This document shows, one piece after another, positions 34,261 through 37,751 of a stretch of DNA of 64,000 nucleotides; position 1 is the first letter of the stretch, and each line of letters starts with the position of its first letter. A program made the translations under genes and the position numbers. Under the pieces are notes generated by a model. It searched no databases and was not told where the DNA came from. It saw nothing but the letters and a program-made list of their open reading frames with translations. Source of the DNA: Rhodocyclaceae bacterium. Lineage in GTDB: Bacteria > Pseudomonadota > Gammaproteobacteria > Burkholderiales > Rhodocyclaceae. The stretch is from the NCBI GenBank assembly GCA_023383815.1, contig JAHDYG010000006.1, positions 25,061-89,060 on the forward strand. Direction: 5' to 3'.

Positions 34261-35388
34261 GTGCCTGGCTTGCTCCCCGAAGTCGATCCCGACGGCCTGC
34301 TCGAATTCTCGGTCGTGTTCACAGACCGCTCGCTCAACCACATGTCGCAAGCCTTCCAGCAGGTGATGCGGGACATCTCCTCGACGCTCAAGGAGGTCTA
34401 TCACGCCCGCTCGGTCGTCGTCGTGCCCGGGGGCGGCACCTATGGCATGGAAGCGGTGGCGCGACAGTTCGCGACCGGGCGCAAGTGCCTCGTGATCCGC
34501 AACGGCTGGTTCAGCTATCGCTGGACGCAGATCTTCGAGGCTGGCGCGATCCCCTCCTCGCACACGGTGATGAAGGCGCGGCCCGTCAGCGACGAGCCGC
34601 AGGCGCCGTGGGCGCCGGCGCCGGTCGGGGAGGTGGTTGCGGCGATCCGCGCCGAGCGCCCGGATCTGGTGTTCGCCCCGCATGTCGAGACTTCGTCCGG
34701 AATGATGCTGCCCGACGACTACCTGCGCGCCGTCGCCGACGCCGTGCACGAAGTCGGCGGGATGATGGTGCTCGACTGCATCGCGTCGGGTGCGATCTGG
34801 GTCGACATGCAGGACTGCGGCATTGATGTGCTGATCAGTGCACCGCAGAAGGGCTGGAGCGCCTCACCGTGCAGCGCGCTGGTGATGCTCGGCGAGCGTG
34901 CCCGCGAACGCATCGATGACACGCGCAGCACCAGCTTTGCGTGCGATCTGCTGAAGTGGCTGCAGATCATGGAGGCCTATGAGAATGGTGGCCATGCCTA
35001 TCACGCGACGCTGCCCACCGATGCGCTCAAGCGCTTCCGCGATGCGATGCTCGAGACCCGTCGCGACGGATTCGAGCACCTGCGTGCGGCGCAGTCCGAA
35101 CTGGGCAGCCGCGTGCGTGCGCTGCTGGCCGGGCATGGGGTAAAGAGCGTCGCCGCGCCCGGATTCGAGGCGCCTGGCGTGGTCGTGAGCTACACCGCGG
35201 ACGATGGGATCAAGAGCGGTGCGAAGTTTGCCGCCGTCGGACTGCAGATCGCCGCTGGCGTGCCGCTGCAATGCGACGAAGGGGCCGATTTCAGGACCTT
35301 CCGCCTGGGGCTCTTCGGACTCGACAAGCTTGAGCATGTGGACCGCACCGTCGCGAGCCTGAAGGACGCGCTCGAACGCGTGCTCTGA
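34261..35388 (+). CDS. Class V PLP-dependent aminotransferase (serine/alanine-glyoxylate type)
   Basis: A 375-residue fold-type I PLP enzyme of the class V family. GGGTYGMEAVARQF is the phosphate-binding loop, VLDCIASGAIWVDMQ carries the pyridine-binding aspartate, and the Schiff-base lysine is in ISAPQKGWSASPC. Overall it resembles serine-glyoxylate/alanine-glyoxylate aminotransferases, but the amino donor is uncertain. The start is GTG at 34261, one base after the recD stop, supported by GGAGG seven bases upstream. It may be read from the recCBD transcript; no functional link to recombination is evident. A strong stem-loop follows directly. Confidence 0.82.
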   Translation: MPGLLPEVDPDGLLEFSVVFTDRSLNHMSQAFQQVMRDISSTLKEVYHARSVVVVPGGGTYGMEAVARQFATGRKCLVIRNGWFSYRWTQIFEAGAIPSSHTVMKARPVSDEPQAPWAPAPVGEVVAAIRAERPDLVFAPHVETSSGMMLPDDYLRAVADAVHEVGGMMVLDCIASGAIWVDMQDCGIDVLISAPQKGWSASPCSALVMLGERARERIDDTRSTSFACDLLKWLQIMEAYENGGHAYHATLPTDALKRFRDAMLETRRDGFEHLRAAQSELGSRVRALLAGHGVKSVAAPGFEAPGVVVSYTADDGIKSGAKFAAVGLQIAAGVPLQCDEGADFRTFRLGLFGLDKLEHVDRTVASLKDALERVL

Positions 35389-35412
35389 CCCGCCGGGTCC
35401 CGGCCCGGCGGG
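35389..35412. terminator. Perfect 9-bp GC hairpin after the aminotransferase
   Basis: CCCGCCGGG and CCCGGCGGG pair around a six-base loop immediately after the stop codon, followed only by TT. It lies between the convergent aminotransferase and cytochrome c' loci and probably terminates the recCBD-aminotransferase unit. Confidence 0.55.
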
Positions 35413-35449
35413 TTCCGGGCGCACGCGGTCCGCCGGCCCCCCGCCATGC

Positions 35450-35923
35450 TTACACGTCGGCGCGGTACTTGTCCTGGGAGGGCGGGCATGGCAGTCCAGG
35501 TTAGGCGAACTGCGCCTTGATCGCAGCCGTATCGCCGGTTGCGGCCACTTCCTGGAGCTTGTTCGCCTGTCCGATGTAGTGCATCGCGATGCGGCGCACT
35601 TCGTCCGGCTCCTGGAAGAAGTTCGCCTTGACGCGGGTCGGCTTCCAGCCCGTACCCTGTTCGGTTCCCGGCCTGAACAGCGCACCCATGCCGGAATTGG
35701 CGGTCGCCGCGATGAGGTTTGCGGCCGCGAGCACCTGGGCCTTGTCGTACGGAACCGTGCCATCGACGACCTGTGCCTTGATCTTGCTCATGTTCCAGGC
35801 CATGAAGGTGTAGCCAGACTGACGGGTCTTGATCATGTCCTCGGCCGACATCTGGGCCTGGGCGGACGGGGCGAGCAGCGCGAGGGCGAGTGCGCCGATG
35901 GGTGCGAGCAGGGTCTTGTTCAT
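35450..35923 (-). pseudogene. Cytochrome c' gene with stop codon and destroyed heme motif
   Basis: The frame encodes a signal peptide (MNKTLLAPIGALALALLAPSAQA) and a cytochrome c' four-helix body (RQSGYTFMAWNMSKIKAQV; EVRRIAMHYIGQANKLQEVA). It stops at TAA (35503-35501) after 140 codons, just before the C-terminal heme site. Reading through the stop in the same frame gives PGLPCPPSQDKYRADV and a second TAA at 35452-35450. Class II cytochromes end with a CxxCH motif at this position. Here CPPSQ stands where CxxCH is expected, so TCC replaces a Cys codon and CAG a His codon, each one substitution away. The family alignment needs no gaps. The product therefore cannot bind heme c in the normal way: either a decayed gene or an unusual heme-less four-helix protein. 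An AAAGGA site lies upstream. Confidence 0.75.
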
Positions 35924-36137: not shown

Positions 36138-37751
36138 ATGGCGAACACACCGATCTGGGTGAGGCTTACCGGGGCGATCTGGCTGATGCTGGTGATCGCA
36201 TGGGGCAGCATGATCGTCTGGGAGACTCGGGTCAATCGTGATATCGCGATCGACCAGGCATCCGATTTCGCGAGCAGTGTCAATGAGATGACGATGGCTG
36301 GCCTGACCGGGATGATGATCACCGGCACCATCGGCCAGCGCGATGTCTTTCTCGACCAGATCAAGGAGCTGTCCTCGGTACGCGATCTGAAGGTGATCCG
36401 GGCCGAGGCCGTCAACCGGATCTTCGGACCCGGAAATGCGGCCGAGTCGGCGCTCGATGACGTCGAGCATTCGGTGCTGAAGAGCGGCGAAGCCTACGTC
36501 AGGGTCGAGACCGATGGCCGCCATGGCGAGCATCTGCGCGTCGTGTTCCCGGCCCTGGCACTGTCGAACTACCTGGGCAAGGACTGCATCGCCTGTCATC
36601 AGGCGAGCGAGCGCGAGGTGCTTGGTGCGGTGTCGATGCGCATCTCGCTCGATCGCGTGAATGAGGCGGTGACGAGCTTCCGCAACCAGAGCATCCTGTT
36701 CGCGGTTCTCGTGTCGCTGCCGCTGATCGGGTTCGTGTTCCTGTTCATCCGCCGCTTCGTCACCCGTCCGCTCGAGGAGCTGTCCGGCAGCCTCGCCGAC
36801 ATCGCGCGCGGAGAGGGTGACCTGACCCGCCGTCTGGAGGCGAAGAACGACGACGAGATCGGCCGCACCGCGAGGACCTTCAACCAGATGCTGTCGGCGA
36901 TCGCCGGACTGGTCCGCCAGGTCAGCACTTCGGCGGCCGAGGTGACGAGTTCTGCGCGCGGGCTGGCGATGAGTGCGGCCGACGTCGCGAAAAGCTCACA
37001 CCGCCAGAACGATCAGTCGGTCAGTGCTGCCGAAGCCGTCGAAGGACTCAACGAGAGCATCACCCACATTGCGGCGAGCACCGAACACGTGCGCGAGCGT
37101 TCGCGCGAGAGCCTTGCACGCTCACACGAGGGCAAGGAAAGCCTCGGCCACCTGATCCGCGAGGTCGGGCAGGTCGAACAGGCCGTGCATTCGATGGCTG
37201 AGTCGGTCGGCGCCTTCGTGCATTCGACCGATGCGATCACCCGCATGACTGCCGAGGTGCGTGAGATCGCCGAGCAGACCAATCTGCTCGCGCTCAACGC
37301 GGCGATCGAGGCTGCGCGGGCCGGTGAGCAGGGACGTGGTTTTGCTGTGGTGGCCGACGAGGTGCGCAAGCTGGCCGAGAAATCGGCACGCTCGGCCGGC
37401 GAGATCGATGCGGTGACACAGGAGATCTCCCGTCAGTCGGGCACGGTTCAGCAGTCGATTCAACGCGGTCTCGACCATATCGACAGCAGCCGCAAGGCTG
37501 CCGAAGTCGTGTCCGACGTGCTGGTGGCGGCGAACGATTCGGTCGCCGAAGTCGGCGAAGGCCTCGACCGCATCGTCACGGCGACCGATGCGCAGCGGGA
37601 TTCGAGTCAGGCGGTGACGGGCAGTATCGAGGCCATTGCCGAGATGGCGCGCAGGAACAACCGGGCGATCGAAGAGACGGAACAGGCGGCACGGGCGCTG
37701 GAAACGCTGGCGGCCCGTCTGCAGGAATCGGTTTCGCGGTTTCGCGCCTGA
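36138..37751 (+). CDS. Methyl-accepting chemotaxis protein with periplasmic heme motif
   Basis: A 537-residue chemoreceptor. One membrane helix lies near residues 7-27, a periplasmic sensor at about 28-185, a second helix at about 186-204, then HAMP and a signalling domain with the conserved tip [20 protein letters not shown]. The sensor domain carries CIACH at residues 150-154, a c-type heme attachment motif, exported with the receptor and therefore open to cytochrome c maturation. Heme-c chemoreceptors such as Desulfovibrio DcrA sense oxygen or redox state, and a similar role is likely here. No C-terminal CheR-docking pentapeptide is seen. It is divergent from the degenerate cytochrome c' gene. 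Confidence 0.88.

Follow-up and report, generated by a model that had tools for sequence, protein, structure and literature searches.

The closest solved homologue of the protein described here is PHCP, the cytochrome c' of Hydrogenophilus thermoluteolus, for which thioether attachment of the heme has been reported to be a prerequisite for stability (PMC5368077). The same study provided the ten heme-contact residues of PHCP that fall in the region we call the body (PMC5368077). A related gene, in which the heme-attachment site is damaged, was found in a 64-kb stretch of DNA, the whole of which is referred to as the window. The gene and its surroundings comprise the following features.

35388 to 35413, no strand assigned: perfect inverted repeat of 10 bp resembling a terminator, located where the window is richest in GC
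35450 to 35473, minus strand: undamaged rest of the original tail, DKYRADV plus an in-frame TAA; codons 151 to 154 match those of most near relatives
35474 to 35506, minus strand: damaged block, codons 140 to 150, reading A-stop-PGLPCPPSQ; low nucleotide identity, private transversions
35501 to 35923, minus strand: truncated cytochrome c' frame of 140 aa, ATG at 35923, TAA at 35501 to 35503; PF01322 match
35507 to 35851, minus strand: four-helix body, codons 25 to 139, fully conserved as judged by constraint, pLDDT, and Foldseek
35855 to 35923, minus strand: probable signal peptide, MNKTLLAPIGALALALLAPSAQA; cleavage placed by eye, in a part of low model confidence
36138 to 37751, plus strand: methyl-accepting chemotaxis protein with an intact CIACH heme motif; divergent, conserved neighbor of the cytochrome c' gene

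An earlier note on this DNA had described a cytochrome c' frame that halts before its heme site, and such a frame is present in the given sequence. Its ATG is preceded by a plausible ribosome site, and by eye its N terminus looks typical of a Sec signal peptide. The 140-aa product matches the Pfam family PF01322 (Cytochrom_C_2) with an E value of 3.4e-23 and 83 bits (cutoff, 26.5); the match spans profile positions 1 to 106 of 121, which is everything except the heme-attachment end. The best solved homologue is 5b3i, the Hydrogenophilus cytochrome c' (E value, 3.2e-41). The stop is codon 141, the C-terminal CxxCH is absent from the open frame, and CPPSQ lies beyond it. Translation in frame past the stop gives FA, stop, PGLPCPPSQDKYRADV, stop, with the second TAA at 35450; this tail is readable and has neither the second Cys nor the His of CxxCH, which bears out the proposed loss of the heme motif. 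A search of the genome for a second cytochrome c' copy found none, and the gene is the sole PF01322 member.

To collect relatives, sequenced prokaryote genomes were scanned, and up to 399 genomes from the family to which this one belongs were searched. Those recovered reach 74 to 75% identity, and 79% at best over the body alone. When they were aligned with the frame, CxxCH proved to be intact in every one of the 127 relatives extracted. All of them read through the position of the TAA at 35501 to 35503, so that a functional relative ending at the same stop, which would have spoken against a lesion, was found in 0 of 127. The PF01322 matches listed from the 399 family genomes are full length, with no internal stops, and viral contigs yielded no relatives. 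In a tree, the window protein groups among proteins of Aromatoleum, Denitromonas, and Azoarcus, with weak support. Cytochrome c' was not found in the genus mate (G001), the only other genome of the genus compared, and is absent from many family genomes as well.

All of the damage lies within 33 bases. Where relatives show (G/A)xxGxxCxxCH, codons 140 to 150 retain the first Cys (codon 146) and have lost the second Cys and the His. The earlier note counted three damaging changes; the early stop and the loss of Cys and His are present in the given sequence, but the count was too low, as the block differs from the closest codons that relatives use by at least 10 bases, spread over codons 141 to 150, with no net indel. 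At the nucleotide level, identity with the nearest relatives stands at 0.75 to 0.80 over codons 25 to 139, falls to ∼0.50 over codons 140 to 150, and returns to 0.75 to 1.0 over codons 151 to 154, where DKYR is identical to that of most near relatives. In a control with 101 relatives, conservation of the equivalent block was usually a little higher than that of the body, and an equal drop was seen in none of the 101. The seven codons after the block and the old stop are nearly untouched, a sparing with a post hoc P value of ∼0.02. Matches of the block to relatives in register numbered 15.9, against 9.1 ± 1.9 for shuffled blocks; the block thus keeps register with the relatives and represents the damaged original heme site rather than chance or foreign DNA. 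Bases absent from all 15 nearest relatives make up 13 of 33 positions in the block and 16 of 342 in the body, counts that are approximate and perhaps too high, given that these relatives are just ∼79% identical over the body. Transversions account for all 13 private changes in the block and for 6 of the 16 body ones (Fisher P = 4e-4).

Several ways of generating the block were considered. Compensating frameshifts were rejected, since the optimal gapped alignment is gap free and register 0 is best. A template switch or short inversion found no support in local direct or inverted matches, the longest of which were 6 to 8 bases, the same as in shuffled blocks. The reverse complement, the reverse, and the complement of the block all failed to fit the relatives. 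A search elsewhere in the genome for a donor found none within 3 mismatches, and the single-strand fold of the region was unremarkable (z = −0.55).

The body, on the other hand, is as well kept as had been claimed. Over codons 25 to 139 (115 codons), all 34 positions at which 90% or more of the relatives agree are unaltered; at the rate of the block, ∼18 amino acid changes would be expected at conserved body codons (P of finding none, ∼1e-8). The dN/dS ratio of the body, a check that had been suggested, is 0.16 to 0.38 against the nearest relatives, equal in constraint to functional relatives among themselves (0.16 to 0.46). Seven of the ten PHCP heme-contact residues in the body are identical here, and the other three are alternates also found in relatives. 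An AlphaFold model built with 29 sequences has a mean pLDDT of 87, mostly above 90 in the body, and shows a four-helix bundle with a shortened last helix; Foldseek aligned it to 5b3i with an rmsd of 0.9 Å. Together, the constraint on the body and its intact heme pocket indicate that selection maintained the gene as that of a heme protein until a short time ago, or does so even now.

The damaged block adjoins the GC maximum of the window. GC content in 70-base segments near it rises to 0.857, a value reached at 4 of ∼63,900 positions, and the motif GGCGGG occurs four times within the 98 bases from 35389 to 35486, compared with 98 times in the whole window. According to a review, GC-rich sequence, GGCGGG, and inverted repeats are error contexts in Illumina sequencing, raising the indel rate above all, and transversions are the commonest Illumina substitution errors (PMC4719071). 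A class V aminotransferase gene (34270 to 35388, plus strand) is convergent with the cytochrome gene, and the terminator region is common to both; its product has 2-aminoethylphosphonate and aspartate-glyoxylate aminotransferases as relatives, with scores under the cutoffs of the named families.

On the other side of the cytochrome gene, the chemotaxis receptor carries its CIACH c-type heme motif in the sensor part, which gives a weak match, below the cutoff, to PF21563. The receptor and cytochrome c' genes are adjacent at nine loci in relatives (L040, L094, L085, L055, L037, L136, L133, L020, and L004), and the receptor CxxCH is intact in 9 of the 9 relatives keeping the pair. The genus mate (L153, contig C110) retains the DegP-type protease locus, which there has neither a cytochrome c' gene nor one for the heme chemotaxis receptor; this joint absence suggests that the two genes may be gained and lost together. 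A literature search for a pairing of cytochrome c' with a heme chemotaxis receptor found none.

From the observed damage, its confinement, the intact body and relatives, and the GC-rich setting, we infer a cause, and hold with moderate confidence that this is an ordinary cytochrome c'-alpha gene whose heme end was corrupted by a local consensus error. The gene itself would be a vertically inherited cytochrome c'-alpha, predicted from its sequence to encode a periplasmic, four-helix, gas-binding c-type cytochrome; a consensus or base-calling error beside the very GC-rich hairpin most likely corrupted the 33-base block in the given sequence, and the living cell would then carry a normal CxxCH protein. 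Drift or decay would be expected to leave many transitions and to extend into the body or past the block into the codons that follow, which makes error the first suspect. More generally, the 33-base confinement, the restriction to transversions, the preserved register, and the GC-rich hairpin make ordinary decay less plausible than a sequence error or one clustered event. The GC and motif setting is circumstantial evidence, and some observations count against an error: the genome is of good quality in other respects (completeness, 99.98%; 58 contigs), the block consists of substitutions without net indel, though GC-rich and hairpin contexts mainly bring indels, and consensus errors at such density are unusual. 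In favor of an error, the other genes in the window are apparently unbroken. Of the options in the earlier note, a local sequencing or assembly problem is the more probable, and recent decay, in the form of a very recent clustered lesion, is the less probable.

Such a lesion, in which the heme site was lost to clustered mutation within the cell, leaving a fresh pseudogene that has not drifted elsewhere, is a possible but less likely explanation than a consensus error. Cytochrome c' is evidently dispensable in the group, given its absence from the genus mate and many family genomes; at least 10 changes in 33 bases, with 13 private ones that are all transversions and with the flanks spared, are nevertheless not ordinary mutation, and a template-switch donor or inverted source was found neither locally nor in the genome. 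If the sequence is correct, the stop and the Cys and His losses constitute a disabling lesion relative to 127 relatives, one hallmark of a pseudogene; another hallmark, a relaxation of constraint along the coding sequence, was not observed, the body being constrained like that of functional relatives. The same 345 body bases free of decay contradict an old pseudogene decaying throughout, which would explain the stop and the loss of the heme site and which we regard as hardly credible. That a heme-free four-helix protein is retained for another purpose, with its body under selection and the untranslated rest drifting, is improbable. Purifying selection on the body, its foldability in silico, and the divergent chemotaxis receptor gene next door are compatible with such a protein; however, neither the stop nor the loss recurs in any relative (0 of 127), the heme-pocket residues are kept, which would be pointless if heme were unbound, and drift after the stop would neither spare codons 151 to 157 and the old stop nor yield transversions alone. 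The thioether attachment on which PHCP reportedly depends for stability (PMC5368077) also speaks against it and makes an unstable apo-protein, and hence a null allele, the likely outcome of a real lesion. The notion of a heme-free protein is thus unsupported, with CxxCH kept in all relatives and the body contacts still of the heme type, and it is even more doubtful that the product is a heme-free or noncovalently heme-binding periplasmic protein, perhaps acting as a partner of the adjacent heme-bearing receptor. Literature searches joining cytochrome c prime with pseudogene, or seeking a heme-free member of the family, found none; both were weak searches, the prime sign being unsearchable.

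If the sequence is wrong, the gene in the cell may still have its C-terminal CxxCH. A real lesion would make this a fresh null allele, whose product has neither the second Cys nor the axial His and is cut short in the last helix; normal heme attachment would then be impossible and the protein unstable. The organism would have lost its sole cytochrome c' very freshly, providing a usable natural knockout, and the gene would best be called a fresh, ordinary pseudogene from a known family. A clean active-site loss beside a GC-extreme hairpin calls for a check of the reads before decay or a new function is claimed.

Among known systems, the closest solved homologue of the window gene is PHCP (cytochrome c'-alpha, class II; 5b3i and 8brl), to which its body is 62 to 63% identical, with a modelled rmsd of 0.9 to 1.0 Å. 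The two are alike in the heme-contact residues of the body, which are retained here; they differ in that the window gene carries other residues in place of the second Cys and of the axial His, with a stop ahead of both. Cytochrome b562, which binds heme noncovalently in a four-helix protein, shares the general fold alone: engineered variants were weak Foldseek hits at ranks 44 and 49, and no match appeared in the PDB sequence search. The window gene keeps the covalent-type pocket of a cytochrome c'. The nearest proteins in the tree, the cytochromes c' of Aromatoleum, Denitromonas, and Azoarcus (L032 to L036, L042, and L043), are 79% identical at best over the body, and unlike the window gene, all of them have an intact CKACHDKYR/F tail.
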